This document shows positions 3,104-63,244 of a stretch of DNA of 64,000 nucleotides, in pieces (position 1 is the stretch's first letter; every line of letters begins with the position of its first letter). The notes beneath the pieces are model-generated. The model was not told the DNA's origin and searched no databases. It was given only the letters and a program-made list of their open reading frames with translations. A program made the position numbers and the translations under genes. The stretch lies in the NCBI RefSeq assembly GCF_021390675.1, contig NZ_JAJEJV010000004.1, positions 806,001 through 870,000 on the forward strand, given 5' to 3'. Origin of the DNA: Dyella sp. 2HG41-7. GTDB lineage: Bacteria; Pseudomonadota; Gammaproteobacteria; Xanthomonadales; Rhodanobacteraceae.

Positions 3104-4689
<1,586 letters not shown>

Positions 4690-4690
4690 T

Positions 4691-5410: not shown

Positions 5411-5421
5411 CGTTCAGCAGA

Positions 5422-14208: not shown

Positions 14209-14299
14209 CGAGGTGTCCTGTACAGGGTCAATGCGGCGCCGCAAACAGTGATGGAGTGCTGCGACCACGACGCATGGCCGCAGCACCCTGGCGCCGAAC

Positions 14300-43893: not shown

Positions 43894-44619
43894 TTAACGA
43901 TGCCAACCGAGCGTCGGCCCAACCGCTTTGGCGGCGGCGCGTAACGCCTGCGTGGCCCGTTGCATGCGGGAGTATAGACGGGGCAGCTCGCCCCACACTG
44001 ACGGATGCCTGCACAGCGCGGCCATCAGATGGAGCGGCCGCGGCCGGCCCCAGGCATCGACGCTATCGTTCAGCGCGCTGGGAATCATGTCGTTCGCCTC
44101 GTCGACGATGGCGCGCATCACGATAAAGGGTAGGCCGCGCGTCTGGGCGACGGCGGCCACAGCGGCGCTTTCCATATCCACAGCAAGCGCCGCATAACGC
44201 TGATGCGCGGTTTGCTTCGCGGCGACGGTCAGCAGCGGCGCAGCGACGCTGAGCAGGGCGCCTTCGGTACGCAGCGGCGTATCGATCTCCGCAAGCGTGC
44301 GTTGCACGTCGGCGCACCACGAAGCATCGGTCGCGAAGTCACGGCCTTCCTCGTCCATCACGCGTTCGGGGCAGAACAGCGCGCCGTTGCGCAACTGCGG
44401 ATGAAGTGCGCCGGCGACGCCGAAAACAGCCAGCGCGCTGGCTCCCGCGTCCGCCAATCCTTCTGCAGCGCGTCGTGCTGCGTCAGGTCCCATGCCGCTA
44501 AGCCAAAGCGCCGAGTCGTCGCCGAGTGCAGTGATCTGATCGGGTTTCGCGGCGCGCGACGTCAGCGTGTCGGCTTCCGACGCCAACGCGACGACGATGC
44601 CGGTTGCGCCGATGTTCAA
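43894..44619 (-). CDS. hpnG: Hopanoid-associated phosphorylase HpnG (adenosylhopane nucleosidase/phosphorylase)
   Basis: Removes adenine from adenosylhopane made by HpnH, giving phosphoribosyl- or ribosylhopane. 241 residues, PNP/UDP phosphorylase fold: GIVVALASEADTL, GMGPDAARRAAEGL, FGVAGALHP, AVDMESAAVAAVA. The start is taken as TTG 44619, which overlaps the shc stop (TTGA) and gives the expected N-terminus; the ribosome binding site is poor, so this is uncertain by a few codons. Third gene of the sqs-shc-hpnG unit. Confidence 0.88.
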   Translation of the reverse strand: MNIGATGIVVALASEADTLTSRAAKPDQITALGDDSALWLSGMGPDAARRAAEGLADAGASALAVFGVAGALHPQLRNGALFCPERVMDEEGRDFATDASWCADVQRTLAEIDTPLRTEGALLSVAAPLLTVAAKQTAHQRYAALAVDMESAAVAAVAQTRGLPFIVMRAIVDEANDMIPSALNDSVDAWGRPRPLHLMAALCRHPSVWGELPRLYSRMQRATQALRAAAKAVGPTLGWHR

Positions 44620-46592: not shown

Positions 46593-47758
46593 CGGTGTCG
46601 TGCTTCGACATCGGCCGGTTCGCGCCACTGGGCGGCATCGGCGATGTGCGGGATGGAACGTTTGGGCCAGGTGCGGGCGGGCGTCGAGGGCTCGCTCCAT
46701 TCGGCGGTGAGCGGCGTCACCGGCAGGCCGCGCGCGGTGATCGCGAACAACCAACGCAGGCCAGTGTTGGATTTGCCCAGCACGCGCGTCATCAGAATGG
46801 TGCGCGCCACGGCTTTGCGCGAGATCTTGATCTGCGTGCCGGCGGAGAAATCCAGATTGTTCTGCAAATTGCGCAGCGTCAGCAGCGCCATGCCGATCGC
46901 CCATAAGCAGAAGCGGCGAATGCCAGCGTGCTTGGTGGGAATCAGCAAGGTGTATTCCAGCGCCTCGCGCAGATGCGCGTGCGCAATGCCGACCAGCTCC
47001 GACATCGTGGCCGCATAACCGGCGTTCTGCTTACCCGCCTGCAGCGTGCTCAACTTCACGCCGTGCTGCGCGAACATATCCTGCGGCAACCAGCAGGCGC
47101 CGCGCGTGCGGTCTTCCCATTGATCCTTGAGGATGTTGACCATCTGCAAGCCTTGGCCAAACGACACGGCCAGACGCAGCATGGTGTTGCGATGCGGAGC
47201 GAGCAACGGTTCGAAATCGACGAACAGTTCCGTCAGCATTTCGCCCACGACGCCGGCGACGCAGTAGCAGTAGCGATCCAGATCGTGCAGCGTCGGCAAA
47301 CCTTGCAAACCGGCCTTGCGCTGAAACTCGTGCATGCCGTGCGACATGATGCGCAGGCACTTCACGATCGACGCCTGTTGCGACGGCGCGAGGCTGCGCG
47401 TCACTTCCAGCACCAGCGGCAGTTGCCGCATCAGATCGCGCTCGGCTTCCAGCGTGCTGTCGGACAGCAGCGGCGCGACTTCGTCGGCCACTTCGTGCGC
47501 GTCGGTTTCGCCGACGACGGCATCGACGAACGCGTTTTCGAACGCGCGCTTCTGCTCGGCCGACAATGCCGGCTCGTCTTCGATGGTGTCCGCAATGCGG
47601 CAGAGTAGGTATGCATTCGCGACCGCACGGCGCAGCTCCGGGGGAAGCTGCGGGATGGTCAGCGCAAAAGTCCGGGAAACCTTCGGCAGGATGGCATCCT
47701 GATAGGCGTCGGCCTTTGCGCTTCCGGTACCGGCGGTGGCATTGTTTATTTCGATCAT
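46589..47758 (-). CDS. Squalene synthase-type trans-isoprenyl diphosphate synthase
   Basis: Joins two FPP to give squalene (or presqualene diphosphate). 389 residues from ATG 47758, with GAGG upstream. Asp-rich motifs are DTIEDEP (about 55-62) and NILKDQWEDRTRG. YCYCVAGVVGEMLTELF matches the substrate site. With about 390 residues and a C-terminal extension of about 100 residues beyond the core it looks closer to single-enzyme squalene synthases than to HpnC or HpnD (about 280-300 residues). No hpnC or hpnE gene is in the window, which agrees. It heads the operon sqs-shc-hpnG. Confidence 0.82.
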   Translation of the reverse strand: MIEINNATAGTGSAKADAYQDAILPKVSRTFALTIPQLPPELRRAVANAYLLCRIADTIEDEPALSAEQKRAFENAFVDAVVGETDAHEVADEVAPLLSDSTLEAERDLMRQLPLVLEVTRSLAPSQQASIVKCLRIMSHGMHEFQRKAGLQGLPTLHDLDRYCYCVAGVVGEMLTELFVDFEPLLAPHRNTMLRLAVSFGQGLQMVNILKDQWEDRTRGACWLPQDMFAQHGVKLSTLQAGKQNAGYAATMSELVGIAHAHLREALEYTLLIPTKHAGIRRFCLWAIGMALLTLRNLQNNLDFSAGTQIKISRKAVARTILMTRVLGKSNTGLRWLFAITARGLPVTPLTAEWSEPSTPARTWPKRSIPHIADAAQWREPADVEARHR

Positions 47759-48126
47759 GGGTATGCCTCGACCGCCGGAATTATGACACACCCATGCGGG
47801 TACGAATCCGAAACGGCGATAACGCGGGCCGTTTTCATACTGGGAAATGTCTGATAGGACATGCGTGCAACACGGCTGGCCGGAGGCTGGCGGGGTGGGG
47901 TAGGCATTCCAATATGCTGAAGCACCGGGGTTGCTTGAACAAGTCCGCAGGTGCATCGCGGGCGTCACAGTTTGAAATGCAAATGAAAGGATGCTGCCGG
48001 CAGCGCTGCGGTTTTGGCGCATCGATCCGCGATTTTCGTCCATAATTCCGCGATGACAGACACGACTTCTTCCATCACGGACATCGCCGCCGGCGCGCGG
48101 TCGCTCACGATCTGGACGGGTGCATT
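47759..48126. promoter_or_regulatory. Divergent promoter region of the sqs-shc-hpnG and hpnA units
   Basis: 368 bases. The ten-base motif CATAATTCCG occurs once in each direction: 48041-48050 on + and 47776-47785 on -, each close to the first start codon of its unit and readable as a -10 box. A palindrome GCTGCCGGCAGC sits at 47993-48004. A 25-codon ORF precedes hpnA (see 48053). Confidence 0.5.
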
Positions 48127-48130
48127 GTGA
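48053..48130 (+). CDS. 25-codon upstream ORF overlapping the hpnA start
   Basis: ATG 48053 opens 25 codons (begins MTDTTSSITD) ending in a TGA that overlaps the hpnA GTG as GTGA. The position suggests translational coupling: ribosomes ending here could restart at hpnA, which has a weak ribosome binding site. The -10-like CATAAT six bases before would make the transcript start at or very near this ATG (leaderless). Not supported by any known family. Confidence 0.35.
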   Translation: MTDTTSSITDIAAGARSLTIWTGAL

Positions 48131-49104
48131 AGGCCCTGGTGACCGGCGCCACCGGATTCGTGGGCTCGGCGGTGGCGCGCCGTCTGTTGCGCGATGGGCA
48201 CCGCGTTCGCGTGCTGGCGCGGGCCGGTTCGGATCGGCGCAATCTGCAAAACCTCGATGTGGACGTGGTCGAAGGCGACCTTACCAAGCCGGCAAGCTTG
48301 CTGCCCGCTTGCGACGGTTGCGATGCCTTGTTCCATGTCGCCGCCGATTACCGCCTTTGGGCGCCGGATCCCGCTGAACTTTATCGCGCCAATGTCGACG
48401 GCACGCGCGCGATTCTGGAGGCGGCCACGCGCGTCGGTGTGCAGCGCATCGTGTACACCAGCAGCGTGGCGACGCTGGGCATTCCCAAAGACGGCACACC
48501 GGGAAGTGAGAGCACGCCGGTGACGGTGGACGACATGATCGGCCACTACAAGCGCTCCAAATTTCTCGCCGAAGAAGTGGCCCGACAATTCGCGGCGGAA
48601 GGTTCGCCGGTGGTCATCGTCAATCCGTCCACACCGATCGGGCCGTACGACATCAAACCCACGCCGACGGGACGCATCGTGCGCGATGCGATGCTGGGGC
48701 GCTTACCGGCGTATGTCGATACCGGTTTGAATATCGCGCACGTAGACGATGTCGCCGAAGGCCATTGGCTGGCGTACGAACGCGGCGCAATCGGCGAGCG
48801 GTACATTCTCGGCGGCTTCAATATGAGTCTGCGCGATGTGTTGACGGAAATCGCCAACATCGCAGGGCGCTCTCCACCCAAGGTGCGTTTGCCGCACGCC
48901 GCCGTGATGCCGGTGGCTTATGTCGCCGAAGCGTGGGCGCGCCTGACCGGCATGAATCCGATCGCCACGGTCGAAGAAGTACGCATGTCGAAAAAACGCA
49001 TGTTTTTCACTATCGCCAAGGCCGAGCGCGAACTCGGCTACACCGCGCGTCCGGCGCGATTGGCGTTGGAAGATGCGGTGCGCTGGTTCCAGCAGCAACG
49101 TTGA
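48127..49104 (+). CDS. hpnA: Hopanoid-associated sugar epimerase HpnA
   Basis: NAD-dependent epimerase/dehydratase-like SDR found in hopanoid clusters; the reaction is not established. 325 residues from GTG 48127. ALVTGATGFVGSAVARRLL is the Rossmann site; SSVATLG and the Tyr-x-x-x-Lys pair (HYKRSKFLAEE) are the catalytic elements; VIVNPSTPIGPYDIKPTPTGRIV is typical of HpnA. Confidence 0.92.
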   Translation: MKALVTGATGFVGSAVARRLLRDGHRVRVLARAGSDRRNLQNLDVDVVEGDLTKPASLLPACDGCDALFHVAADYRLWAPDPAELYRANVDGTRAILEAATRVGVQRIVYTSSVATLGIPKDGTPGSESTPVTVDDMIGHYKRSKFLAEEVARQFAAEGSPVVIVNPSTPIGPYDIKPTPTGRIVRDAMLGRLPAYVDTGLNIAHVDDVAEGHWLAYERGAIGERYILGGFNMSLRDVLTEIANIAGRSPPKVRLPHAAVMPVAYVAEAWARLTGMNPIATVEEVRMSKKRMFFTIAKAERELGYTARPARLALEDAVRWFQQQR

Positions 49105-50153: not shown

Positions 50154-50168
50154 CACTGGAACATCTCT

Positions 50169-51191
50169 TCAAATAGGCGGTTGGCCGGAACCGGCGCGCG
50201 CGGAGTTGCCGGTATACAGCCGGCGCGCTTCGGCCCATTGCCAGGAAATCAACGCGGGCACGCCGAAACCGACTTCACGCATGCGCTTGACCAGCGACAG
50301 CGCAACGCTGGCTTCGGGCGGCAAACCGATCATGTTGCCGAACAACACCAAGCCGCCTTCCTGCACGCCCAGGCCAGCCGGTACAACGAAAATGATATGA
50401 CGCAGCGCCTGCGTTACGGCTTCGATGGCGATCGCATCCCACACGCTGATCGGATAACCCAGCAGATGCAACGCCAGCCACGTTTCGAAACTGCCCGTCA
50501 CATAGCCTGCGAACTGCCAGCCGGTGGCGACGATCAAACGCAGGGGGCGCGAATACTGTTCGCGGATTTCCTGATCGAGATTCGCGCCATCGATCAGTTC
50601 GGTCAACGTCGAACGACCGCCCAGCAACTTCTCGGCGAAACCTTCCAGGCGCGAGAACACCTTGCCATGGCGCAGCAGGATGATCAGGAAAATCGGCAAC
50701 GGCACGCTCGCCGCCAAGGCTGAAATCACCGTGCTGAACGCGCTGATATTGCTGGTCAGCTCGATCAGCAAAATGATACCCAGCGCGGTGAACAGATATT
50801 GATTCACCAGCGTGAGCAGAACTTCCATGATCACACTCGCCGCCGTGGCGGCGCCGCCGATGCCGCGCCATTTCACCAGGCGGATGCCGATGATTTCGCC
50901 GCCGATATTGGCGACCGGTAGCAAACGATTGCTGGCCTCGCGAATCGAAGCCACCCAGAACAAAAACGGCAGCGTGGCTTGCCGATGCGGGTCGCGCGGC
51001 GCGATCAGCACGCGCCAACCCACGACATCCAGCAGCAACGGCAACACGTGGAACGGCAGCAGCCACAGCAGCGCCCAACCGGCGTGATCGATCGCCGTCA
51101 TGATTTCCGACCAACCCTGGTGCGCCACCAATGCGATAGCGACGCCGAGGCCGAGAATGCCGGCGATATAACTAAGCAACTTCATGTTCAT
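50169..51191 (-). CDS. hpnL: HpnL-like membrane protein (lysylphosphatidylglycerol synthetase TM-domain family)
   Basis: Integral membrane protein of 340 residues with about eight helices, of the UPF0104/LPG synthase membrane-domain fold. PVANIGGEIIGIRLV and VPAGLGVQEGGLVLFGNMIGLP are the conserved family motifs. In hopanoid clusters HpnL is proposed to handle or flip modified hopanoids. The ATG at 51191 overlaps the hpnK stop by four bases. Confidence 0.85.
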   Translation of the reverse strand: MNMKLLSYIAGILGLGVAIALVAHQGWSEIMTAIDHAGWALLWLLPFHVLPLLLDVVGWRVLIAPRDPHRQATLPFLFWVASIREASNRLLPVANIGGEIIGIRLVKWRGIGGAATAASVIMEVLLTLVNQYLFTALGIILLIELTSNISAFSTVISALAASVPLPIFLIILLRHGKVFSRLEGFAEKLLGGRSTLTELIDGANLDQEIREQYSRPLRLIVATGWQFAGYVTGSFETWLALHLLGYPISVWDAIAIEAVTQALRHIIFVVPAGLGVQEGGLVLFGNMIGLPPEASVALSLVKRMREVGFGVPALISWQWAEARRLYTGNSARAGSGQPPI

Positions 51192-52087
51192 GCTGCGACC
51201 GCCGTCGGATCGGAAAAGCCTTCGCACAAGTGATAGCGATCGGCGATGGTTTGGCGCACGCGCGGCGAGAGCAGTGCGGCGAGTTCGTCGGCGTGGCGAT
51301 ATTCCGCCATGCTGTCGGTGAGGTGTCCGTGCGAAGCCGGATGCAGATAAATTTCCGACAGGCCGCGCGGCAGTTCTCGCAGAATATCGAGCATCACCGT
51401 TTCATCCATGCCGCCGCTGTGGCGCAAACCGAACACATGATCGTTGTACGCAACGCCAGCGCGATCCAAGCGCCGGCGCATCAACGCCAACCACGGACGC
51501 AGCCACGGACCCATGCCGGGTTCCGAAGGCAGGCGAATCGCGCGCAGACCGTATTCGCGGCCAATCGAAAGCATCAGCGACAAAATCGTGGGATGCAGAT
51601 GGAAATGCTTGTGCGCATTGGCGTGATCGAGTTTAAGCCCGGTCGCTTTGAACGCCTCGAATTGCGCGCGAATTTCATCGGCGAGCTGGCGGCGCACATG
51701 CGGCAAAAAGAAAAAACGGAAACCGTTGCTCACCATGTTCGAACTGAACATGCCTTGGGCATCGACCAGATCGGGAATGCGCGAGGGAGGAAGCATCGCA
51801 CGGCCATCGGCGAGCACGAGATGCAAACCCACGGCCAGATCGGGATTCTGCTTGGCGCGCGCTACGGCGTCGGCCACGGCAGGCGCCGCCACCATCAAGC
51901 TGGCGGCGCGCAGCACGCCATCGCGATAGCCGCGTTCCACGGCTTCGTTGACGGCCTCATGCAAACCGAAATCGTCGGCGGTGACGATGAGGCGTGGGCG
52001 ACTATCCCTACTCCCTCTCCCCTCCGGGGAGAGGGCTGGGGTGAGGGGTCGCTCTTGCGTGATTGTTGATTCGGAGCGCGATGTCAT
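51188..52087 (-). CDS. hpnK: Hopanoid N-acetylglucosaminyl deacetylase HpnK (ChbG/YdjC family)
   Basis: Deacetylates the GlcNAc put on bacteriohopanetetrol by HpnI. 299 residues. LIVTADDFGLHEAVNEAV carries the metal-binding Asp pair; KLDHANAHKHFHLHP carries the His ligands. The first 31 residues are odd: they include PLTPALSPEGRG, the translation of a palindromic repeat (52013-52035). No alternative start codon lies between the repeat and the conserved domain, so the repeat seems to have become part of the coding sequence. Confidence 0.9.
   Translation of the reverse strand: MTSRSESTITQERPLTPALSPEGRGSRDSRPRLIVTADDFGLHEAVNEAVERGYRDGVLRAASLMVAAPAVADAVARAKQNPDLAVGLHLVLADGRAMLPPSRIPDLVDAQGMFSSNMVSNGFRFFFLPHVRRQLADEIRAQFEAFKATGLKLDHANAHKHFHLHPTILSLMLSIGREYGLRAIRLPSEPGMGPWLRPWLALMRRRLDRAGVAYNDHVFGLRHSGGMDETVMLDILRELPRGLSEIYLHPASHGHLTDSMAEYRHADELAALLSPRVRQTIADRYHLCEGFSDPTAVAA
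52009..52049. repeat. Palindromic repeat inside the hpnK 5' coding region
   Basis: CCCTCTCCCC / GGGGAGAGGG perfect arms (52013-52035) followed by a GGTGAGGGG tail. The same unit appears inverted and more diverged at 52110-52163. Confidence 0.75.
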
Positions 52088-52200: not shown

Positions 52201-53628
52201 TTAAGCCTCGTGCGCGTGCAGGAAGCGGAAGAATTCCACGCCTTCGCGCAAACGGCGCTTCATCATGTCCCAGCTGGTGAGCATTTCCTTGACGATTTCC
52301 CAGATCTTCGACGGGCGGAAATAGAACGCACGGTAGAACTTCTCCACGCCGTGGAAAATTTCCTGCTTCGACAGATGCGGGTATTCGATCAGCGCCAGCT
52401 GCACACCCTTGTCGTTGACGAGGTTGACCGCCTCGTTTTCCTTCAGCCAATTGTTCTCAACGGCCTGCTTGTACAGCGCGGTGCCCGGATACGGAGCAGC
52501 CAGCGACACCTGGATGGTGTGCGGGTTGATTTCCTTGGCGAACTGGATCGTCTTGTCGATCGTTTCCTTCGTTTCGCCCGGCAGGCCGAGGATGAAGGTG
52601 CCGTGGATGGTGACGCCCAGCTTGCGGCAGTCTTCGGTGAAGCGGCGCGCGATATCGGTGCGCAGGCCCTTCTTGATGTTGTGCAGGATCTGGTCGTCGC
52701 CCGACTCGTAACCCACGAGCAGCAGACGCAGACCGTTTTCCTTCATGATCTTGAGCGATTCGTAAGGCACATTCGCCTTCGCGTTGCACGACCACGTCCA
52801 ACCCATCGCGCCAAGGCCGCGCGCGATTTCGTGCACGCGTTCCATGTTGGAACTGTCGGTGAAGGTGTCGTCGTCGAACATCAGCTCCTTCACTTCGGGC
52901 ATGTTCTCTTTGATCCACTTCGCTTCGGCCAGCACGTTCGCAGCCGAACGCGTGCGGTAGCGATGGCCGCCGACGGTTTGCGGCCACAAGCAGAACGTGC
53001 ACTTGGAGCGGCAGCCGCGACCCGTGTAGATCGACACGTACGGATAGTTGAGATAGCCGATGAAGTAGTTGCTGATCTTCAAGTCGCGCTTGTAGATCGG
53101 CGCGACGAACGGCAGATCGTCCATGTTCTCGATCATCGCGCGCGGCGGATTGTGCTGCACGGTGCCGTCGGCAAGACGATAGGTGATGCCGGTGATGCTT
53201 TCGAACGGGCGACCTTCGGCGACTTCTTTGCAGGTGTAGTCGAATTCTTCGCGCGCGACGAAGTCGATCGCCTTCGATGCGGTGAGCGAACCGGTCGGAT
53301 CGACCGCCACCTTCGCGCCGACCAGGCCGACGATCACGTTCGGCTTGCGCTCTTTCAGGAGCTCGGCGAACTTGGCGTCGGTCGGGAACGACGGCGTGCT
53401 GGTGTGGATGATCACCAGGTCGTAGTCGGCGGCGATCTTCAAGCTCTCTTCGACCGAGATCTCGTCGGCCGGCGCATCGAGCACGCGCGAATCGGGCACC
53501 ATCGCGGCCGGCTGTGCGAGCCAGGTCGGATACCAGAAACTCTTGATCTCTCGTTTGGCTTGGTAGCGCGAACCCGCGCCGCCATCAAAGCCATCGAAGG
53601 AAGGAGCTTGCAGAAAAAGCGTTTTCAT
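52201..53628 (-). CDS. hpnJ: Hopanoid biosynthesis radical SAM protein HpnJ (B12-binding type)
   Basis: Contracts the hopanoid-bound glucosamine to a cyclitol ether. 475 residues. An N-terminal cobalamin-binding-like domain (about 1-180) precedes the radical SAM core with the 4Fe-4S motif Cys206-x3-Cys210-x2-Cys213 (RGCRSKCTFCLWP). ELMFDDDTFTD and GTFILGLPGET are further radical SAM elements. Second in the hpnI-J-K-L-diiron unit. Confidence 0.93.
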   Translation of the reverse strand: MKTLFLQAPSFDGFDGGAGSRYQAKREIKSFWYPTWLAQPAAMVPDSRVLDAPADEISVEESLKIAADYDLVIIHTSTPSFPTDAKFAELLKERKPNVIVGLVGAKVAVDPTGSLTASKAIDFVAREEFDYTCKEVAEGRPFESITGITYRLADGTVQHNPPRAMIENMDDLPFVAPIYKRDLKISNYFIGYLNYPYVSIYTGRGCRSKCTFCLWPQTVGGHRYRTRSAANVLAEAKWIKENMPEVKELMFDDDTFTDSSNMERVHEIARGLGAMGWTWSCNAKANVPYESLKIMKENGLRLLLVGYESGDDQILHNIKKGLRTDIARRFTEDCRKLGVTIHGTFILGLPGETKETIDKTIQFAKEINPHTIQVSLAAPYPGTALYKQAVENNWLKENEAVNLVNDKGVQLALIEYPHLSKQEIFHGVEKFYRAFYFRPSKIWEIVKEMLTSWDMMKRRLREGVEFFRFLHAHEA

Positions 53629-53706: not shown

Positions 53707-54861
53707 TTAGGTCCGTGGCGCTGAACCATCGCCTCGTGCATGCAGAACCTGACCGCGCCATTTTACCTGCCAACCGGCCAGGGCAACTGCCCATTCCATC
53801 AGCAATAAGGCGTCGCGGAGGGGAATCAACAGGACTTCATGCCAGGCGAAGGCTTGATCGCTGATGCGCCGCTGCAAAAAGTGTATCAAAACCCGCGCCG
53901 CGCCACCCAGCAGGGCCAGGCCGGCGGTAACCGGTCCGGGCGCCAGGCACAACCCCAAAAGTAGCAAAGGCGCGGTAAAACACACGAAAGTCAGGGCAAA
54001 ACCCGCCGGAGCGATCGCGCGGATGGTGCGCAGCCAGCGCAGTTCGTGCGTCCACAAATCTTTCAGTGTGCTTTCGCCGACCTCGGTGCCGACCACCACG
54101 TCCGACAGCACGGTCTGCAAACCGGCGCGTCGCGTGAGCTCGCCCAGCCAGAAATCGTCGGCCAGCAGGTCGCGCAGTACATCGAAACCGCCGATGGTCG
54201 CCAGTGCATCGCGACGCAAGGCGATGGTCGAGCCGAATGCGAATTGAGTCGATCCGAAAGCGTTCGACAGTTTCACGGAAGGCGCGAACCAGTCGTCGAT
54301 AAATAGACGGCCAAGCCGCGACCAGAACGAAGGCCCCGGAATGCCGTAGTAAAGACAGGTGACGATGCCCACGCTCGGGTCGGCCAACGGCGCGACGACG
54401 CGCGCCAGATAGTCCGGTTTCACATAGATATCGGCATCGGCCAGCACCAGCACATCGTGCTGCGCGTGCGGCAGCATGTTCATCAGATTGCTGACTTTGA
54501 AGTTCGCGCCATACACGCGCGAATCGATCGCCAAGGCGATCGATTGCTGTGGAAATTCGTGACGCAAGCGCTCGACCACGGCGATGGCCGGATCGTCCGG
54601 ATCGCGCACGCCGAAGACAATCTGATAATTGGGATGCGTCTGCACACAGAAGCTGCGCAGGTTCTCGTATAGCTTGGGTTCTGCGCCATGCAAGGGTTTG
54701 AGCACGGTCGCAGGTCGCGGCTGCGTGTCGTTGGACGCCCATGTTCGGCGCGGCCGTTTCAGCATCGCCCACAGCGCAACACAGGCGTACCCTGTCGCCG
54801 CAAAGGCGAACGCGATGCCTAGTCCACGCGTAAGGTGAGTCGATAACCAGCTCGGAAACAT
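53707..54861 (-). CDS. hpnI: Hopanoid glycosyltransferase HpnI (family 2, membrane)
   Basis: Transfers GlcNAc to bacteriohopanetetrol. 384 residues: an N-terminal helix (about 11-34), a GT2 domain with TVLKPLHGAEPKLYENLRSF, the DxD-type LADADIYVKPDYL, LADDFWLGEL and the HELRWLRTIR (QxxRW-like) motif, then C-terminal helices (290-370). It resembles ceramide glucosyltransferases, as known HpnI proteins do. First gene of the minus-strand unit, divergent from the mevalonate side. Confidence 0.92.
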   Translation of the reverse strand: MFPSWLSTHLTRGLGIAFAFAATGYACVALWAMLKRPRRTWASNDTQPRPATVLKPLHGAEPKLYENLRSFCVQTHPNYQIVFGVRDPDDPAIAVVERLRHEFPQQSIALAIDSRVYGANFKVSNLMNMLPHAQHDVLVLADADIYVKPDYLARVVAPLADPSVGIVTCLYYGIPGPSFWSRLGRLFIDDWFAPSVKLSNAFGSTQFAFGSTIALRRDALATIGGFDVLRDLLADDFWLGELTRRAGLQTVLSDVVVGTEVGESTLKDLWTHELRWLRTIRAIAPAGFALTFVCFTAPLLLLGLCLAPGPVTAGLALLGGAARVLIHFLQRRISDQAFAWHEVLLIPLRDALLLMEWAVALAGWQVKWRGQVLHARGDGSAPRT

Positions 54862-55573: not shown

Positions 55574-56602
55574 ATGAACCGCGAACCACGCACCGATCTG
55601 TCCGGTGAACTGCGTGCTGCTTCCCAAGCACAGCCCAACATCGCTCTGATCAAGTACTGGGGCAAGCGCGACACGGCGCTCAATCTGCCGGTGGTCGGTT
55701 CGATTTCCATCACACTGGAAAGTTTGTGGACGCGCACCGATGTGCGTTTCGTGCCCGGCCAGAAGCACGATCGCGTGAGCCTCAACGGTCGCAGCGATGA
55801 CGCGGAATCCAAGCGCATCACCGCGTGCTTAAATTTGTTGCGCACGCGCGCGGGCGTCGATTACGGCGCGGACGTTGCGAGCCGCAACAACTTCCCTACT
55901 GCAGCAGGTTTGGCTTCTTCCGCATCGGGATTTGCCGCACTGGTGCACGCCGGCACGCGCGCGCTCGGTTTAGATTTGAATCTCACCGAGCAATCCGAAT
56001 TGGCGCGTCGCTGCTCCGGTTCGGCGGCGCGTTCGCTGTTCGGCGGTTATGTGGAATGGGCGCACGGCAAGCTGGCCGATGGCAGCGATTCCATCGCGCA
56101 ACCTTTGCTCGATGCGAGTGCATGGCCATTGCGCGTAGCCGTTGCGATTACTTCGACGGCGGCCAAGCAGGTCGGTTCGACCGAAGGCATGCGCCGCACG
56201 GCGGAAACTTCGCCGTATCAATCCGCATGGATCGATACGCAGGAAGCGGATCTGAGCGTGGCGCGCGATGCGATCCGCGCACACGATTTCGATGCGCTGG
56301 CGCGCATCTCCGAATACAGCTGTTTGAAGATGCACGCGCTGGCGCTCGCGGCGCAGCCGGGTCTGTTGTATTGGAATGGCGCGACCGTGGAATGCATGCA
56401 CCGCGTGCGCGCGCTGCGTCAGCAAGGCGTGCCGGTGTTCTTCACCGTCGATGCCGGCCCGCAATTGAAAGCGGTGTGCGCACCGTCTGCGATTGAGCAA
56501 GTAAAAGCCGCTTTGCGCGATGTGCCCGGTGTGCTCGAAGTGCTCGATACCGGATTGGGCGAGGGCGCCCACGCCATCGCCTCGGATGCCGTGGAGGCAT
56601 GA
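55574..56602 (+). CDS. mvaD: Diphosphomevalonate decarboxylase
   Basis: ATP-dependent decarboxylation of mevalonate diphosphate to IPP. 342 residues of the GHMP fold. The N-terminal QPNIALIKYWGKRDTALNLP signature, the P-loop-like AAGLASSASGFAAL and the FTVDAGPQ region (catalytic Asp) are all present. First mevalonate gene of the unit; the stop overlaps the next start region (ATGATG). Confidence 0.93.
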   Translation: MNREPRTDLSGELRAASQAQPNIALIKYWGKRDTALNLPVVGSISITLESLWTRTDVRFVPGQKHDRVSLNGRSDDAESKRITACLNLLRTRAGVDYGADVASRNNFPTAAGLASSASGFAALVHAGTRALGLDLNLTEQSELARRCSGSAARSLFGGYVEWAHGKLADGSDSIAQPLLDASAWPLRVAVAITSTAAKQVGSTEGMRRTAETSPYQSAWIDTQEADLSVARDAIRAHDFDALARISEYSCLKMHALALAAQPGLLYWNGATVECMHRVRALRQQGVPVFFTVDAGPQLKAVCAPSAIEQVKAALRDVPGVLEVLDTGLGEGAHAIASDAVEA

Positions 56603-57699
56603 TGGAACTCACCGCCAGCGCACCGGCCAAGCTGGTTCTGTTGGGCGATTACGCCGTGCTGGAAGGCGCGCGCGCCCTGGTGCTGGCGGTGGATCGCCGC
56701 GCCAACGTACGCATCGCAGCGCGTGAAGATCGTGAATGCAATGTGTATGCGCCGGATCTTGGCGTTCATGGCGCACAGATCGCGATCGGGAGCGACGGCA
56801 ATCTGCATTGGCAGTGCGACGAGGCGACCAAGGCCAAACTCTCGCTCGTTGATCACGTGTGGCACGGGCTGCTGGATGAAGGCCTGGCGCCTTTATCGCG
56901 CGGCGGTTTCGATCTGCATCTGGATACCTCCGGGTTTTTCCACGTCGAAGGATCGGTGCGCGCCAAGTTGGGGCTCGGTTCGAGTGCGGCCTTGACGGTA
57001 GCGCTTGCTTCCGCGCTGGCAACGTACGCCGGGCATGGCGATGTCATCACCGATCGCACGCGATGGATGCGGCAGTTGTTGAACATGCACGGAAATTGGC
57101 AGGGCGGGCGCGGCAGCGGCGTCGACATTGCCGCCAGCGTGGCGGGCGGATTGATCGCGTATCAACTCGTCGGCTCAACGCGCGAGCCCACCTACGAAGC
57201 GATGCGCATGAACGGCTTGCATTGCCTGTTTGTCTGGTCGGGACAGTCCGTCTCCACCAGCGACTCGCTACAACGTTTGGCACTGTGGCGCGATACCCAT
57301 GCGGCCGATTATGTGGCGCATATGGACGAATTGAGTTCGATTTCTGCTGCCGCGATCGATGCGCTTGCGCAACAGCGCGTACAATCTTTCATTGGCCTTA
57401 CGAAAGACTATGCACGTGGATTGCAGCATTTCAGCGCTGCGTGCGGTCTGGAAATCTATTCTCCCGCACAAAAACGACTCGCCGATATGGTTTCAGGCAC
57501 CGATGTCAGTTATAAGCCTTGCGGCGCAGGCGGCGACTTCGGCGTGGTCTTTGCCGAGGATGCGGAAAGGTTGGCGACATTTGGACGCGCCATTGTTTCC
57601 GCCGATATGCAAGTTGTTCCCCTGGGGCTTGATAACCAGGGCGTGAGCTGCCATATGCGGCCAGACGCGAAATCTCCCCCCTCAAGGATTTTGACGTGA
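56602..57699 (+). CDS. Phosphomevalonate kinase (GHMP family)
   Basis: Phosphorylates mevalonate 5-phosphate. 365 residues. TASAPAKLVLLGDYAVLEGARAL is GHMP motif 1, KLGLGSSAALTVALASAL motif 2 and KPCGAGGDFGVVF motif 3. GRGSGVDIAASVAGG is typical of phosphomevalonate kinase. The ATG at 56602 is preferred over 56599 because GGAGG (56593-56597) is then four bases away. The mevalonate kinase step is covered by the next gene, which supports this assignment. Confidence 0.87.
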   Translation: MELTASAPAKLVLLGDYAVLEGARALVLAVDRRANVRIAAREDRECNVYAPDLGVHGAQIAIGSDGNLHWQCDEATKAKLSLVDHVWHGLLDEGLAPLSRGGFDLHLDTSGFFHVEGSVRAKLGLGSSAALTVALASALATYAGHGDVITDRTRWMRQLLNMHGNWQGGRGSGVDIAASVAGGLIAYQLVGSTREPTYEAMRMNGLHCLFVWSGQSVSTSDSLQRLALWRDTHAADYVAHMDELSSISAAAIDALAQQRVQSFIGLTKDYARGLQHFSAACGLEIYSPAQKRLADMVSGTDVSYKPCGAGGDFGVVFAEDAERLATFGRAIVSADMQVVPLGLDNQGVSCHMRPDAKSPPSRILT

Positions 57700-57720
57700 A
57701 CGCAAACCCTGTCGAATGTC

Positions 57721-57802: not shown

Positions 57803-60085
57803 ATGAGCGCCGAATCAACGAGTGCCGAACGGTCCCGATTCCCTGCTTTCTACAAACTCTCGGTGTCCGACCGCGTGCGCATCATTCACGAGCGCGGTTG
57901 GCTTTCGGCCGAGGACTATCAAGCGCTCGTCTCCGGCGAGCACACGCTGAAGATCCACAAAGCCGACAAGATGATCGAAAACGTCGTCGGCGTGATGGGC
58001 TTGCCGGTGGGTCTTGGCCTCAACTTCCTCGTCAACGGTCGCGACTACATCGTGCCGCTGGTGGTGGAAGAACCGTCGATCGTCGCGGCGTTGTCCTCCG
58101 CGGCGAAACTCGTGCGCGGCACGGGCGGCTTCACGGTGGAAAGCACTGAGCCGGTGCTGATCGGTCAGGTGCAAGTGGTGGATGTGCCGCACTTGGCGCA
58201 CGCCAAAGCTACGTTGCTGCAACGTAAAGACGAACTGCTCAATCTCGCCAACAGTCTGCATCCGCAGATGGTGGCGCGTGGCGGCGGCGCGCAGGATCTG
58301 GAAGTGCACGTGCATCCGCGCCCCGAAGGCGGCGACATGCTCGTGGTGCATCTGTTGGTCGACACGCGCGACGCGATGGGCGCCAACCTCGTCAACACCA
58401 TGTGCGAAGGCATCGCTTCGCTGGTGGAAACGATGACCGGCGGCCGCGTATTCCTGCGCATTCTTTCCAACCTCACCGATCGTTCGATGGTGCGCGCGCG
58501 TTGCGTGATTCCTGCCGATCAACTCACCGGCAAAGGTTTCGAAGGCGAAGAAGTGCGCGACGGCATCGTGCTCGCAAACGAATTCGCCAGCATCGATCCG
58601 TATCGTGCGGCCACGCACAACAAGGGCATCATGAACGGCGTCGATGCCGTCGCGCTGGCTACCGGCAACGACTGGCGCGCGATCGAATCGGCCGCGCATG
58701 CGTACGCCGCGCGCGGCGGTCGTTACACGTCGCTGACGCGTTGGTACAAAGGCGAGAAGGGCGAGCTGATCGGCGAACTCGATATTCCGATGAAGGTCGG
58801 CACCGTCGGTGGTCCGCTGCAATCGAACGCCACGGTCGCGCTCAACTTGCGCCTGCTCGGCGTCAAGACGGCGCGCGAACTGGCCGAAATCATGGGCGCC
58901 GTCGGTCTGGCGCAGAACTTCTCGGCGCTGCGTGCGCTGGTCACCGAAGGCATTCAGCAAGGTCATATGACGCTGCATGCGCGCAGCGTTGCCGTGGCGG
59001 CGGGCGCCACGCCGGAAATCTTCGACACGGTCGTGGAGCGCCTGGTGGAAAGCGGCGAGATCAAGATCTGGAAAGCGCAGGAGATCGTCGAGCAGGTACG
59101 CAAGGAATCCCGCGGCGTGCCGGCGACGACGGCCGAGCAACCGTCGGTCGATCATCGCGCATGCGGTCACGGCAAAATCATTTTGCTTGGCGAACACGCG
59201 GTGGTGTACGGAAGTCATGCGATCGCCGCGCCGGTGCCGCTCGCCGTGCGCGCCGTCGCGCAAGACACCAAATCCGGCGGCGTGGATATGTTTATCCCGC
59301 GCTGGGGTGTGGAATATCGCTTGCATCGCGATCCCGCGCACCGCGATTCGTTCCAGCGTTCGCTCGGCATCATCTTCGATTCGCTGGAACTGACCGAGCG
59401 CTCGATGCGCATCGAAGTGTTCCCGAACGTGCCGCGCGCGATGGGTTTGGGCGGCTCGGCCGCGATGGCGGTTGCGGTGATCCGCGCGCTCGACCAGCAC
59501 TACAAGCTGGGCCTGAGCGACGAAGAGATCAACGCGCTGGCGTTCCGTTGCGAAGAAATCGCGCACGGTTCGGCGTCGGGCATCGATAACACCGTGGCGA
59601 CGTATGGCAAAACGCTGCTGTACAAACGCGCCAGCAAGAAGGGCGAGTCGCCGATGGTGCGCGAGCTGCATCTGCCCAAGCGCATTCCGTTGGTGATCGG
59701 TATCAGCGGCAAGGAATCGCTCACAGCGGTGACGGTCGGCAAGGTGCGCACGGCGTGGCAGCGCAATCCCGCGTTGTACGACGGCATCTTCCAGCAGATC
59801 GACGCGCTCACGCTGCAAGGCGTGGAAGCGATGCAGCAGTTCGATCTGGAACGCCTCGGCGATTTAATGAACATTTGCCACGGTCTGCTCAACGCGTTGC
59901 GCGTGTCGAGTTGGGAAGTGGAAGAGCTCGTGCAGATCGCGCGCGAACACGGCGCAATCGGCGCCAAGCTCACAGGTGGTGGTGGCGGCGGTTCGATCGT
60001 CGCGCTGTGCCCGCAGAACCGCGAGAAAGTCGCGGCCGCGATACGCGACGCCGGTTACCAGGCGATGGAGGTCGACATTGGATAA
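57803..60085 (+). CDS. Fusion protein: class II HMG-CoA reductase - mevalonate kinase
   Basis: Two consecutive mevalonate-pathway steps on one chain of 760 residues. Residues about 10-430 are a class II HMG-CoA reductase: ENVVGVMGLPVGLGLNFLVNGRDY, VVEEPSIVAA (Glu90), HNKGIMNGVDAVALATGNDW (Lys274, Asp290) and GHMTLHARS (His388); these align with Glu83, Lys267, Asp283 and His381 of the Pseudomonas mevalonii enzyme at a constant offset of 7. A linker of about 20 residues (RGVPATTAEQPSVD) leads to a mevalonate kinase (about 449-760): GHGKIILLGEHAVVYGSHAIA, MGLGGSAAMAVAV (547-559) and AKLTGGGGGGS. The frame is continuous with no frameshift signs. ATG 57803 begins the homology; GGAG lies 13 bases upstream. 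Confidence 0.95.
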   Translation: MSAESTSAERSRFPAFYKLSVSDRVRIIHERGWLSAEDYQALVSGEHTLKIHKADKMIENVVGVMGLPVGLGLNFLVNGRDYIVPLVVEEPSIVAALSSAAKLVRGTGGFTVESTEPVLIGQVQVVDVPHLAHAKATLLQRKDELLNLANSLHPQMVARGGGAQDLEVHVHPRPEGGDMLVVHLLVDTRDAMGANLVNTMCEGIASLVETMTGGRVFLRILSNLTDRSMVRARCVIPADQLTGKGFEGEEVRDGIVLANEFASIDPYRAATHNKGIMNGVDAVALATGNDWRAIESAAHAYAARGGRYTSLTRWYKGEKGELIGELDIPMKVGTVGGPLQSNATVALNLRLLGVKTARELAEIMGAVGLAQNFSALRALVTEGIQQGHMTLHARSVAVAAGATPEIFDTVVERLVESGEIKIWKAQEIVEQVRKESRGVPATTAEQPSVDHRACGHGKIILLGEHAVVYGSHAIAAPVPLAVRAVAQDTKSGGVDMFIPRWGVEYRLHRDPAHRDSFQRSLGIIFDSLELTERSMRIEVFPNVPRAMGLGGSAAMAVAVIRALDQHYKLGLSDEEINALAFRCEEIAHGSASGIDNTVATYGKTLLYKRASKKGESPMVRELHLPKRIPLVIGISGKESLTAVTVGKVRTAWQRNPALYDGIFQQIDALTLQGVEAMQQFDLERLGDLMNICHGLLNALRVSSWEVEELVQIAREHGAIGAKLTGGGGGGSIVALCPQNREKVAAAIRDAGYQAMEVDIG

Positions 60086-60680
60086 CGCAGAAGTGGAACG
60101 TCAGGATTGGCGCGATTCGAACGAGATCGTGTCGTTCGACGACGAGCCGTTGGTCCTGGTCGATCACGACGATCGCGAAATCGGTTTCATGGACAAGGCC
60201 GCGGCGCACATGGGCAAGGGCACCTTGCATCGTGCGTTCTCGTTGTTCGTGTTCAATTCGAAAGGCGAGTTGCTGTTGCAGCAGCGCGCGTCGGGTAAAC
60301 GCTTGTGGGCGGGCTTCTGGTCGAACACCTGCTGCAGCCATCCGCGCCGCGGCGAGACCTTGGACAGCGCCATTCATCGTCGCTTGCGCGAGGAGCTTGG
60401 GCTCGCCTGTCCGCTCGAACATTTGTTCAAGTTCGAATACCACGCGCAATTCGACGCCGACGGCGCCGAACACGAACTGTGCTGGGTGTATGCCGGCCGC
60501 AGCGACGAAGCGCCGACCGTGAACGTGAATGAAATTTCCGGCCTGCGCTATATCGCGCCGGACGCGCTCGATGCGGAAATGGCGGCCACGCCCGAAGCCT
60601 TCACGCCCTGGTTCAAGATCGAATGGGCAAGGATTCGCAGCGAGCACGCTCACGTCTTCGCGCCGCTTTCGAAGGGCTAA
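60078..60680 (+). CDS. idi: Isopentenyl-diphosphate delta-isomerase, type 1
   Basis: Interconverts IPP and DMAPP, essential when isoprenoids come only from the mevalonate pathway. 200 residues of the Nudix fold. The start is TTG 60078, fixed by GGAGGT at 60068-60073; it overlaps the fusion gene by eight bases. Catalytic Cys86 in SNTCCSHP and Glu133 in EHELCWVY correspond to Cys67 and Glu116 of E. coli Idi. GKRLWAGFWSN and AIHRRLREELGL (Nudix box) are clear. Confidence 0.93.
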   Translation: MDNAEVERQDWRDSNEIVSFDDEPLVLVDHDDREIGFMDKAAAHMGKGTLHRAFSLFVFNSKGELLLQQRASGKRLWAGFWSNTCCSHPRRGETLDSAIHRRLREELGLACPLEHLFKFEYHAQFDADGAEHELCWVYAGRSDEAPTVNVNEISGLRYIAPDALDAEMAATPEAFTPWFKIEWARIRSEHAHVFAPLSKG

Positions 60681-60812
60681 ACGTTAAGCCAAGCCGGCAT
60701 AACCGCCTCATCCAGGTGGGTTATACTGTACTGGTAAGTATTCCACGCTACCGATGCTGCCATCAGCACACGTTTGATCGCATCGAAGCGTACTGACATT
60801 CCGGAGAATCCC

Positions 60813-61955
60813 TTGGGTATCCCTCTTATTCAACAAACCACGATCGCGCAATACATCCTCAAGAAAAAGCTGAGTGGTCAAAAGCGCTACCCGCTGGCGA
60901 TGATGTTGGAGCCGTTGTTCCAGTGCAATCTGGCGTGCGCCGGTTGCGGCAAGATCGATCAGCCCAAGGAAATTCTGCAGAAGCGCATGAGCGTCGAGCA
61001 GGCCTTGGCGGCGGTGGATGAGTGCGATGCGCCGGTGGTGTCGATTCCCGGCGGCGAGCCGCTGATCCTCAAGGATCTGCCGAAGATCGTCGAAGGCCTT
61101 ATCGAGCGCAAGAAATTCGTGTACCTGTGCACGAACGCTATCTTGATGCCCAAGCACATCGACGAATACAAGCCGTCGCCGTACTTCACCTGGTCCGTGC
61201 ATTTGGACGGCCTTGAGAAGCAGCACGATAAATCCGTGTGCATGGACGGTGTGTTCGAGAAAGCCGTCACCGCGATCAAGCTCGCGCTGTCGAAGGGTTT
61301 CCGCGTCACGGTGAACTGCACGCTGTTCAATAGCGAGCCGCCGGAAGAAGTCGCCGACTTCTTCGACTACGCGATGGAACTTGGCGTGGAAGGCATCACC
61401 GTCTCGCCGGGCTACAGCTATCAGCATGCGCCGCGTCAGGACGTGTTCCTCGGCCGCACCGAGAGCAAGCAGCTGTTCCGCGACATCTTCAAGATCGGCA
61501 AAGAACGCAAGCGCAAGTGGGCGTTCAATCAGTCGGCGATGTTCATGGACTTCATCGCCGGCAACCAGGCTTACCAGTGCACGCCGTGGTCCAACCCGAC
61601 GTACAACATCTTCGGATGGCAGAAGCCGTGCTACTTGTTGGTCGACGAAGGCTACGCCAAGACCTACAAGGAATTGATGGAAGACACCGAGTGGGAAAAA
61701 TACGGCGTCGGCATCAACCCGAAGTGCGACAACTGCATGGCGCACTGCGGCTTTGAAGGCACGGCGGTGGACGATATGTTCGCCCATCCGCTGAAGGCGA
61801 TGAAGGTGTCGATGTTCGGCCCGCGCACCGATGGCCCGATGGCGCCGGATCTCCCGGTGAAGTACGGCAATCGCGCCGACGCCACCGCGATCAAGATTCC
61901 GATCAGCTCCATTCAGCGCCGCGAATCGTCCACGACGACCGACGCCAATCATTGA
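60813..61955 (+). CDS. hpnH: Adenosylhopane synthase HpnH (radical SAM)
   Basis: Adds the adenosyl group to hopene, the first side-chain step. 380 residues from TTG 60813, supported by GGAGA five bases upstream and by the family N-terminus (IPLIQQTTIAQYILKKKLSGQKRYPLAMMLEPLFQCN). The 4Fe-4S site is Cys38-x3-Cys42-x2-Cys45 (CNLACAGC). SIPGGEPLI and the C-terminal cysteines (PKCDNCMAHCGFEGTAVDD) fit HpnH. A TATACT hexamer at 60722-60727 may mark a separate promoter. Confidence 0.94.
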   Translation: MGIPLIQQTTIAQYILKKKLSGQKRYPLAMMLEPLFQCNLACAGCGKIDQPKEILQKRMSVEQALAAVDECDAPVVSIPGGEPLILKDLPKIVEGLIERKKFVYLCTNAILMPKHIDEYKPSPYFTWSVHLDGLEKQHDKSVCMDGVFEKAVTAIKLALSKGFRVTVNCTLFNSEPPEEVADFFDYAMELGVEGITVSPGYSYQHAPRQDVFLGRTESKQLFRDIFKIGKERKRKWAFNQSAMFMDFIAGNQAYQCTPWSNPTYNIFGWQKPCYLLVDEGYAKTYKELMEDTEWEKYGVGINPKCDNCMAHCGFEGTAVDDMFAHPLKAMKVSMFGPRTDGPMAPDLPVKYGNRADATAIKIPISSIQRRESSTTTDANH

Positions 61956-62115: not shown

Positions 62116-62131
62116 AAGCTACGTGGAGATC

Positions 62132-63244
62132 ATGAGCGGGCTCTTTGGATGGATCGCCGCGTCGCTGCCGGCATTGATGTGGGTAGGGCTGCTGCTGACA
62201 CCGTGGCGGTCCTGGAGCACCCGTGAACGAATCGAAGCCGACCCCCATGCGGGGTCGGTCGATCTCAGCGAAATCACCGTACTGATTCCTGCACGCAACG
62301 AGGCCGATGTCATCGGTCTCACGCTCGGCGGTTTGCAAGCGCAAGGCCATGGTCTGCAAGTGATCGTGGTGGATGATCAGTCCACCGACGATACGGCGAA
62401 AATCGCCGCGTCCTTTCCGCACACACGCGTCGTAAGCGGTCAGCCTTTGCCGGAAGGTTGGGCGGGCAAGTTGTGGGCGTTGGAGCAGGGCAAGGCGCAT
62501 GTGGACACGCGCATCACCTTGCTGCTGGATGCGGATATCCAATTGCAGCCCGGATTGCTGCCTGCGTTGCTGGCGCATAAAGAACGCGAGAACAGGCAAT
62601 TCGTTTCGTTGATGGCCGACCTGCGGCGCACCAGTTTCTGGGATCGTTTGCTGCTCCCGGCGTTTGTGTATTACTTCAAGCTCATCTATCCCTTCGCATT
62701 GTCCAATTCCAACTTCCGCCACGTCGCGGCGGCAGCTGGCGGTTGCATTCTCGTCGACACGGACGCGCTGCATCGCGCCGGCGCGTTCGCCAGTTTGCGC
62801 AATGCGCTGATCGACGATTGCACGCTCGCGCGCCAGGTGAAAAACGCCGGCTATCGCATTTGGCTCGGCTTGAGCCGCGATGTGGTGAGTTTGCGTCCGT
62901 ATGGCAGTCTGCGTTCCATTCACGACATGGTGGCGCGCTCCGCCTTCACGCAGCTCGGTTATTCCACCGTCGTGCTGCTGGTGGTGACGGTGCTTTTCGC
63001 TCTGGCCTACGGTTTGCCGTTCGTGCTGCTGGGCTATCCCGAGACTTGGCGCCTGGGTCTTATCGCCCTGGTGGCGATGATGATCAGCTATCTGCCCATG
63101 CTGCGTTACTACCAGATGCGGCTGGCGTGGGCTCTGTTGTTGCCGTTCGGCGCCGCGCTCTACCTGGGTATGACCTGGAGCTCAGCCATTCGCTACTGGC
63201 GTGGCGTCCGCTCCCGCTGGAAGGACCGCACTTACAGCACTTGA
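62132..63244 (+). CDS. hpnB: Hopanoid-associated glycosyltransferase HpnB (family 2)
   Basis: Membrane GT2 enzyme of the hopanoid locus; the acceptor is not established. 370 residues: an N-terminal helix (MSGLFGWIAASLPALMWVGLLL), GT-A motifs ITVLIPARNEADVIG, VIVVDDQSTDDTA and LLLDADIQLQPG, then HMVARSAFTQLGYST and three C-terminal helices. ATG 62132 has GGAG close by; a GTG at 62123 is possible. It follows hpnH across the structured repeat. Confidence 0.9.
   Translation: MSGLFGWIAASLPALMWVGLLLTPWRSWSTRERIEADPHAGSVDLSEITVLIPARNEADVIGLTLGGLQAQGHGLQVIVVDDQSTDDTAKIAASFPHTRVVSGQPLPEGWAGKLWALEQGKAHVDTRITLLLDADIQLQPGLLPALLAHKERENRQFVSLMADLRRTSFWDRLLLPAFVYYFKLIYPFALSNSNFRHVAAAAGGCILVDTDALHRAGAFASLRNALIDDCTLARQVKNAGYRIWLGLSRDVVSLRPYGSLRSIHDMVARSAFTQLGYSTVVLLVVTVLFALAYGLPFVLLGYPETWRLGLIALVAMMISYLPMLRYYQMRLAWALLLPFGAALYLGMTWSSAIRYWRGVRSRWKDRTYST

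Follow-up and report, generated by a model that had tools for sequence, protein, structure and literature searches.

A fused HMG-CoA reductase and mevalonate kinase that probably replaces the MEP pathway in a Dyella genome

A stretch of 64,000 nucleotides from Dyella sp. 2HG41-7 (contig NZ_JAJEJV010000004.1, positions 806,001 to 870,000; hereafter the window) carries a gene in which a class II 3-hydroxy-3-methylglutaryl-coenzyme A (HMG-CoA) reductase (HMGR) and a mevalonate kinase (MVK) form a single protein. The mevalonate pathway is chiefly controlled at HMGR, and MVK catalyses the step that follows. In all likelihood, the fusion carries out these two steps of the classical mevalonate pathway, probably with NADPH as its reductant, and replaces a lost methylerythritol phosphate (MEP) pathway in this genome. 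The reading frame, domains, residues, gene order, hopanoid neighbours, lack of a match to Dxr or IspH, and conservation were computed; catalysis, NADPH preference, essentiality and kinetic benefit are what we infer.

The proposed mechanism starts from a separate HMG-CoA synthase gene, located elsewhere in the genome, whose product would feed the fusion protein. The N-terminal class II HMGR domain would make (R)-mevalonate from HMG-CoA by reduction, NADPH being the most likely cofactor, and the C-terminal GHMP kinase domain, held on a flexible linker, would convert mevalonate and ATP to 5-phosphomevalonate. Phosphomevalonate kinase (PMK), diphosphomevalonate decarboxylase (MVD) and isopentenyl-diphosphate isomerase (IDI), all encoded alongside, would continue to isopentenyl diphosphate and dimethylallyl diphosphate. 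Isoprenoids would probably be made de novo by this route alone, which would also supply the adjacent hopanoid pathway. Joining the two domains most likely sets a 1:1 dose, and pairing a reductase that is reversible in principle with an ATP-driven kinase most likely keeps the flux moving forward.

Two enzymes in one reading frame

The gene translates as a single open frame of 760 residues with one stop, at its terminus. The open frame extends upstream to position 57716; the ATG at 57803 is the likely start, because relatives from the genome collection begin to match at residues 1-13. An antisense frame of 667 residues (57815-59818, minus strand) overlaps the gene and is interpreted as a shadow frame due to codon bias. 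Both domains exceed the NCBIfam equivalog cut-offs: the HMGR part matches TIGR00532 (416 bits, cut-off 260), as well as PF00368 at residues 21-393 (368 bits, cut-off 27), and the MVK part matches TIGR00549 at residues 456-735 (236.5 bits, cut-off 163), with GHMP N- and C-terminal domains also recognized. Among solved structures, the best relatives are Pseudomonas mevalonii HMGR (1qax), which covers residues 11-433, and Leishmania MVK (2hfs), which covers residues 452-742.

The conservation of the fusion was assessed on 107 fused frames found among 153 loci, some genomes being entered twice; removal of 16 exact repeats left 91 distinct sequences. Five loci were set aside from the 107: L036, the partial L048 and L121, the fragment L140, and L118, which is full length but whose BLAST alignment ended at residue 718. 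Locus L036, from a metagenome-assembled genome (MAG), has a frame break inside its HMGR part. None of the 107 fused frames has a frameshift at the junction. Ratios of nonsynonymous to synonymous substitution rates (dN/dS) against 12 near relatives are low in both domains (HMGR 0.032, MVK 0.059), the linker having 0.115. The original prediction of an HMGR:MVK fusion in one uninterrupted frame thus describes a real gene, and a chance open frame is ruled out by conservation and dN/dS.

With numbering shifted by 7 throughout this part, the HMGR residues E90, K274, D290 and H388 align with the catalytic E83, K267, D283 and H381 of P. mevalonii HMGR; they had been named correctly from the sequence at the outset. 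In the kinase, K458, S552, E584 and D595 correspond to the catalytic Lys, Ser, Glu and Asp of rat MVK (K13, S146, E193 and D204), and the C-terminal motif reads K722-L-T-GGGGGG. All eight residues are unchanged in the 91 distinct fused sequences.

Probable replacement of the MEP pathway

Neither Dxr nor IspH was found in the window's genome, an assembly of 4.26 Mb that is 99.99% complete. The mevalonate cassette therefore probably replaces the MEP pathway and provides the only isoprenoid route of this genome; biologically this is the stronger point, and the original prediction did not make it. Among the classical pathway enzymes, HMGR, MVK and MVD score over their family cut-offs, HMG-CoA synthase does so with Pfam only, and PMK falls under its cut-off. 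Replacement of Dxr by the alternative enzyme DXR-II was considered and set aside: IspH was not found either, so the MEP route could not finish.

The same markers were sought in 40 of the 64 genomes of the order that have a full-length fusion and in 40 other genomes of the order, picked by hand for completeness and spread and not at random. Dxr is present in 7/40 genomes with the fusion (two of the seven being divergent and below cut-off) versus 40/40 without it, and IspH in 5/40 versus 40/40 (Fisher p 2e-17, ignoring shared ancestry). Five genomes with the fusion retain both markers. Within one order, fusion and IspH nearly exclude each other, which makes a clear example of related genomes having exchanged the MEP for the mevalonate pathway. 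A further set of 50 fusion entries, reached via their loci and including many MAGs of unknown completeness, gave IspH in 9, two of which are repeats; at least two genomes are doubled in this set, one (L121) is known by a partial fusion, and several overlap with the 40-genome set. Genus g12 holds both pathway states within two genomes: G396 has the fusion and lacks Dxr and IspH, and G110 has both markers and no fusion. In genus g11, some members are without the fusion and others have it together with both markers.

Within the window's genus, two genomes that lack IspH carry a divergent Dxr-like gene (G354:C1:3243985-3245142 and G358:C7:28722-29876), with scores of 232 and 239 bits, respectively, against a family cut-off of 315.7.

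Supply of HMG-CoA and points against the replacement

The HMG-CoA synthase of the window's genome lies on a separate contig (L102 1297-2970, that is G000:C3:115602-117275) and encodes up to 558 residues. It passes the Pfam cut-off. Relatives of this synthase occur in 17/40 genomes with the fusion and in none of the 40 others; eight further genomes with the fusion have a synthase nearer the conventional type (339-364 bits). In total, an HMG-CoA synthase was found in 25/40 genomes with the fusion and, weakly, in 1/40 of the others. Nine of 80 loci, mostly of Nevskia type, have a Dyella-like synthase downstream of the fusion in the same locus.

Several observations weigh against a bifunctional NADPH enzyme replacing the MEP pathway. 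The two sets of 40 genomes are hand-picked and share ancestry. The Dyella synthase passes no NCBIfam cut-off (best 151 bits versus 360). PMK is below the TIGR01220 cut-off (77 versus 166 bits), so that its assignment to this step relies on position and fold. The serine of the NADPH-type cofactor motif is replaced by glutamine. Finally, HMG-CoA synthase went undetected in 15/40 genomes with the fusion: all five that keep IspH, and ten without IspH (G396, G058, G029, G084, G009, G104, G163, G026, G117 and G152). Nor was a synthase found near the fusion in these 15 genomes (12 regions, L154-L165, plus L031, L034 and L039); pieces of two such loci show genes of regulatory, secretion, lipid-modifying and housekeeping type. 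As all five dual-route genomes are without a detectable synthase, the formation of mevalonate from acetyl-CoA is in doubt in them. Passages of one report (PMC13001223) describe a similar HMG-CoA synthase gap for Legionella. Leucine breakdown could conceivably be a source of HMG-CoA.

Distribution and origin of the fusion

All 16 sampled genomes of the window's genus, whose named members are Dyella, have the fusion. In the order, it is full length in 64/398 genomes, with partial matches in three more (G178, G217 and G109). The fusion is rare in even samples of higher ranks: it is full length in 9/369 genomes of the class, with one further genome (G580) cut by a contig end, and in 2/398 genomes of the phylum, the window's own genome being counted in both. 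The partial matches of G178 and G580 end with their contigs, and the one in G217 begins at base 3 of the contig. The G109 match breaks off at residue 590-592 within a long open frame, inside the contig, and the C-terminus of the kinase was not found downstream of the break (L168, G109:C66:43000-48000). This is the only internal fusion break of its kind that we met, and reflects either a chimeric assembly or a real truncation.

In the genome collection, the best 80 of 222 relatives were kept and both domains are present in 80/80. Their record titles name Dyella, Nevskia, Wenzhouxiangella, Marinobacter, Litchfieldella, MAGs labelled Thermoanaerobaculales (Acidobacteriota), Calditrichia and others, with the proviso that MAG labels can err. 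The original prediction was right about the fusion, which is no isolated case: it is spread across Lysobacterales, some other Gammaproteobacteria and MAGs labelled as other phyla. In plasmids, 37 records matched, none covering 80% of the query and all below 60% identity; the 15 rows examined match the reductase part.

Two loci show additional copies. A Thermoanaerobaculales MAG contig (L101) has two fusion genes, at 3399-5750 and 12242-14806, about 8.8 kb apart. At G119:C4:93972-94889, a second MVK-like stretch directly adjoins the fusion, with 53% identity to the fused MVK, and is a possible duplicate.

In a tree of the HMGR domain (n=121), the 91 fused rows lie on one side of a single branch (SH-aLRT 99). 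The tree was built by a quick method from a set that left out the stand-alone enzymes of Bacillota and archaea; L120 sits on a long branch, and the program flags long-branch joins. Within these limits, the fusion apparently has one origin. Dyella sequences nest among Nevskia-titled ones, which, together with the patchy distribution, suggests horizontal transfer. A more ambitious account, which we hold as tentative and rather doubtful, would make the HMGR:MVK family the product of a single fusion that spread as a cassette and ousted the MEP pathway in several lineages, with NADPH-driven reduction coupled to ATP-driven capture so that mevalonate moves on ahead of any leakage or re-oxidation, in what amounts to one irreversible step.

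Linker and structural model

The stretch between the domains ranges from 13 to 30 residues among the 91 distinct fused sequences and is poorly conserved. An AlphaFold2 monomer model based on 44 aligned fusions has a mean predicted local distance difference test score (pLDDT) of 80 and a predicted template modelling score (pTM) of 0.52; linker residues 438-450 have a pLDDT below 50 and are predicted to be disordered. Compared by Foldseek, the two folded halves of the model match HMGR and MVK structures, respectively. As the linker is disordered and variable in length, the model favours two autonomous enzymes on a flexible tether, with no fixed docking predicted. The two domains have diverged in step (r 0.92 between their distances, n=91), as expected for one gene.

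These features bear on whether mevalonate could be channelled straight between the two active sites, from reductase to kinase, in a shielded hand-over that goes beyond proximity. Two consecutive steps do share one chain, and this arrangement seems seldom undone, since every intact reductase met that is more than about 55% identical to the HMGR domain of the window protein is fused (fused rows range from 56 to 99%, stand-alone rows from 34 to 52%). Among the partial matches of higher identity that were checked, those of G178, G580 and G217 are the ones lying at contig ends. However, a variable, disordered linker and a low pTM without predicted docking speak for a loose tether, and G109 is an exception in which the match ends within the kinase part. 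We consider shielded channelling improbable.

Cofactor helix and direction of the reductase

The original prediction described class II HMGRs as best known for being degradative, NAD-dependent enzymes. The cofactor helix of the window protein reads H153-x-Q155-x-x-x-R159, these three positions aligning with D146, L148 and L152 of P. mevalonii HMGR. Part of a preprint (PMC13370337) gives Dx(V/L)xxxL as the NADH-type motif and (H/Y)xSxxxR as the NADPH-type motif. The NADH-type Asp, at the place of P. mevalonii D146, is absent from the window protein (H153, R159); the His and Arg of the NADPH-type motif are present, with Ser replaced by Gln. Among the fused rows, the first place is His in 90/91 and the last is Arg in 91/91, and the third, Gln here, is Gln, Lys, Asn, Arg or Ala. 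Stand-alone rows (n=30) comprise 17 with Asp at the first place, 15 of them with Leu and 2 with His at the last, and 13 with Ala, Leu or Ile plus Arg, which match neither motif. From these residues we predict that the fused HMGR uses NADPH, with some doubt since the Ser of the motif is missing. For Ruegeria pomeroyi HMGR, a passage of PMC12292504 reports that changing an Asp near the NAD ribose (residue 154) to Lys increased NADPH activity 53.7-fold; we have taken this residue, as an unaligned assumption, to occupy the same place as P. mevalonii D146.

It is thus very unlikely that the reductase half is degradative and NAD-dependent, turning mevalonate into HMG-CoA, with the fusion serving mevalonate catabolism or a switch of use. 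Such a role would fit the score over the cut-off of TIGR00532, an equivalog named 'degradative', and the best solved match, P. mevalonii HMGR. However, the fused kinase removes mevalonate anabolically, the neighbours are biosynthetic, the MEP markers were not found, the NAD-type Asp is replaced by His in 90 of 91 sequences, and the Streptococcus pneumoniae HMGR structure, determined with NADPH, is a match of the same class. Class II HMGRs also serve as biosynthetic enzymes of Gram-positive cocci. For this reason, and because the helix departs from the NADH motif at H153 and R159, the degradative, NAD-dependent expectation is wrong for this protein, and the placement of the reductase among biosynthetic genes, observed at the same time, holds: MVD, PMK and IDI adjoin the fusion.

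One difference in the kinase might hint that a domain is catalytically dead and kept as a scaffold or regulator: the ATP loop reads GLGGSAA, whereas GLGSSAA, or something close to it, stands at this place in four of the five MVK alignments shown. The loop of Leishmania MVK (2hfs, GIGASAS) also lacks the first Ser, however, the catalytic residues are unchanged in 91/91, and the only other match of the fusion protein in its own genome is a 25% GHMP match; loss of activity in either domain is accordingly hard to credit, slightly more so than a degradative role. An assembly or sequencing artefact joining two genes is refuted by the same fusion in 16/16 independently assembled genomes of the genus and by the 107 fused frames.

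Gene neighbourhood

MVD and PMK lie upstream of the fusion, IDI, HpnH and an HpnB-like gene downstream, and other hpn genes on the far side of MVD (Table 1). In 80 loci, contig ends included, IDI accompanies the fusion in 77, PMK in 72 and MVD in 65. At least one hpn gene is present in 33 of the 58 loci holding 14 kb or more, and none in the other 25. According to these counts, the mevalonate genes are constant and the hopanoid genes a frequent companion. A PMK relative adjoins the fusion in most gene orders displayed; the putative PMK evolves far more quickly than the genes around it, with 26-51% identity in many loci where the fused HMGR keeps about 70-91%.

Table 1. Coordinates of the fusion gene, its parts and neighbouring genes in the window
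Feature	Position	Strand	Evidence
HMG-CoA reductase:mevalonate kinase fusion, 760 residues	57803..60085	+	frame, both domains, relatives
class II HMGR domain, residues ~8-434	57824..59104	+	TIGR00532, 416 bits; alignment to 1qax, 6dio, 5wpj
linker, residues ~435-454	59105..59164	+	predicted disordered at 438-450
mevalonate kinase domain, residues ~455-760	59165..60082	+	TIGR00549, 236.5 bits; alignment to 2hfs
diphosphomevalonate decarboxylase (MVD)	55574..56602	+	TIGR01240, 295.7 bits, cut-off 171
GHMP kinase, probable phosphomevalonate kinase (PMK)	56599..57699	+	TIGR01220, 77 bits, below cut-off 166
type I isopentenyl-diphosphate isomerase (IDI), start approximate	60132..60680	+	NF002995, 170 bits, and TIGR02150, 145.6 bits, both above cut-off
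HpnH, adenosyl-hopene transferase	60774..61955	+	TIGR03470, 527.9 bits
HpnB-like glycosyltransferase	62123..63244	+	TIGR03469, 373.7 bits, slightly below cut-off 379
HpnI glycosyltransferase	53707..54861	-	TIGR03472, 457 bits
HpnJ radical SAM protein	52201..53628	-	TIGR03471, 831.9 bits
HpnK	51188..52087	-	TIGR03473, 392.6 bits
HpnL membrane protein	50169..51227	-	TIGR03476, 343 bits
HpnA sugar epimerase	48127..49104	+	TIGR03466, 503.5 bits
squalene synthase-like protein	46589..48043	-	TIGR01559, 130 bits, below cut-off 287
squalene-hopene cyclase	44616..46904	-	PF13243, 436 bits; PF13249, 415 bits
HpnG-like phosphorylase, true start probably internal	43894..45069	-	TIGR03468, 169.7 bits, below cut-off 187
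farnesyl diphosphate synthase	40722..41624	-	NF045485, 333 bits, above cut-off 275

Two other genes of this region deserve mention. A protein of 334 residues (49152-50156, minus strand) recurs in the hopanoid clusters of Dyella and of some Nevskia-type loci; it matches nothing in NCBIfam at E up to 0.001 or in Pfam at E up to 1e-5. A site-specific recombinase family protein (PF10136, 690.7 bits; 38431-40578, minus strand) is encoded close to the farnesyl diphosphate synthase gene.

Significance and comparison with known systems

A natural fusion of this kind is a ready-made part for terpenoid engineering, and allows one to test whether joining steps aids flux. The pathway swap is tied to clusters for hopanoids, compounds used as biomarkers, and the two genomes of genus g12 show both of its states. 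The case also illustrates how an automatic name, 'HMG-CoA reductase, degradative', can mask a biosynthetic enzyme.

The literature describes the pathway in some of these organisms. For Wenzhouxiangella, a passage of PMC7691419 reports the mevalonate pathway and squalene synthase and leaves the fusion unmentioned; Wenzhouxiangella-titled loci carry the same fusion gene lineage. A subdivision-22 acidobacterial genome encodes most mevalonate-pathway genes, according to part of PMC5462960. In a term search, the word 'fusion' was absent from the main text of an alphaproteobacterial hopanoid paper (PMC12583986), and the main text of the Legionella report, whose pathway-use table may list some such genera, names neither Dyella nor Nevskia. 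In searches of an open-access library, some of them aimed at a fusion, we recognized no description of a natural HMGR:MVK fusion. As far as we can tell, the pathway is partly known in these organisms and the fusion is undescribed: the architecture is common in some lineages, and we found no characterization of it.

Each half has well-studied counterparts. The class II HMGRs of P. mevalonii (1qax), Delftia acidovorans (6dio) and S. pneumoniae (5wpj) share its fold and its catalytic Glu/Lys/Asp/His residues, at 45-54% identity in the structural alignments listed. Unlike the P. mevalonii and Delftia enzymes, which have Dx(V/L)xxxL, the window protein has HxQxxxR, nearer the NADPH-type motif, and a C-terminal kinase. 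The MVKs of Leishmania major (2hfs) and Methanosarcina mazei (4hac, 6mde) share the whole domain, the ATP loop, the Lys/Glu/Asp residues and the glycine-rich C-terminal motif, whereas the window kinase is fused and not stand-alone, is about 30-32% identical to them, and has GLGGSA instead of GLGSSA.

By analogy, the fusion of two enzymes within a known pathway is a known kind of arrangement. MvaE of enterococci, an acetyl-CoA acetyltransferase fused to a class II HMGR, likewise is a natural fusion of this reductase with another enzyme of the mevalonate pathway. However, MvaE joins HMGR to the first step of the pathway, whereas the fusion in the window joins it to the step that follows, at the opposite end of the reductase.

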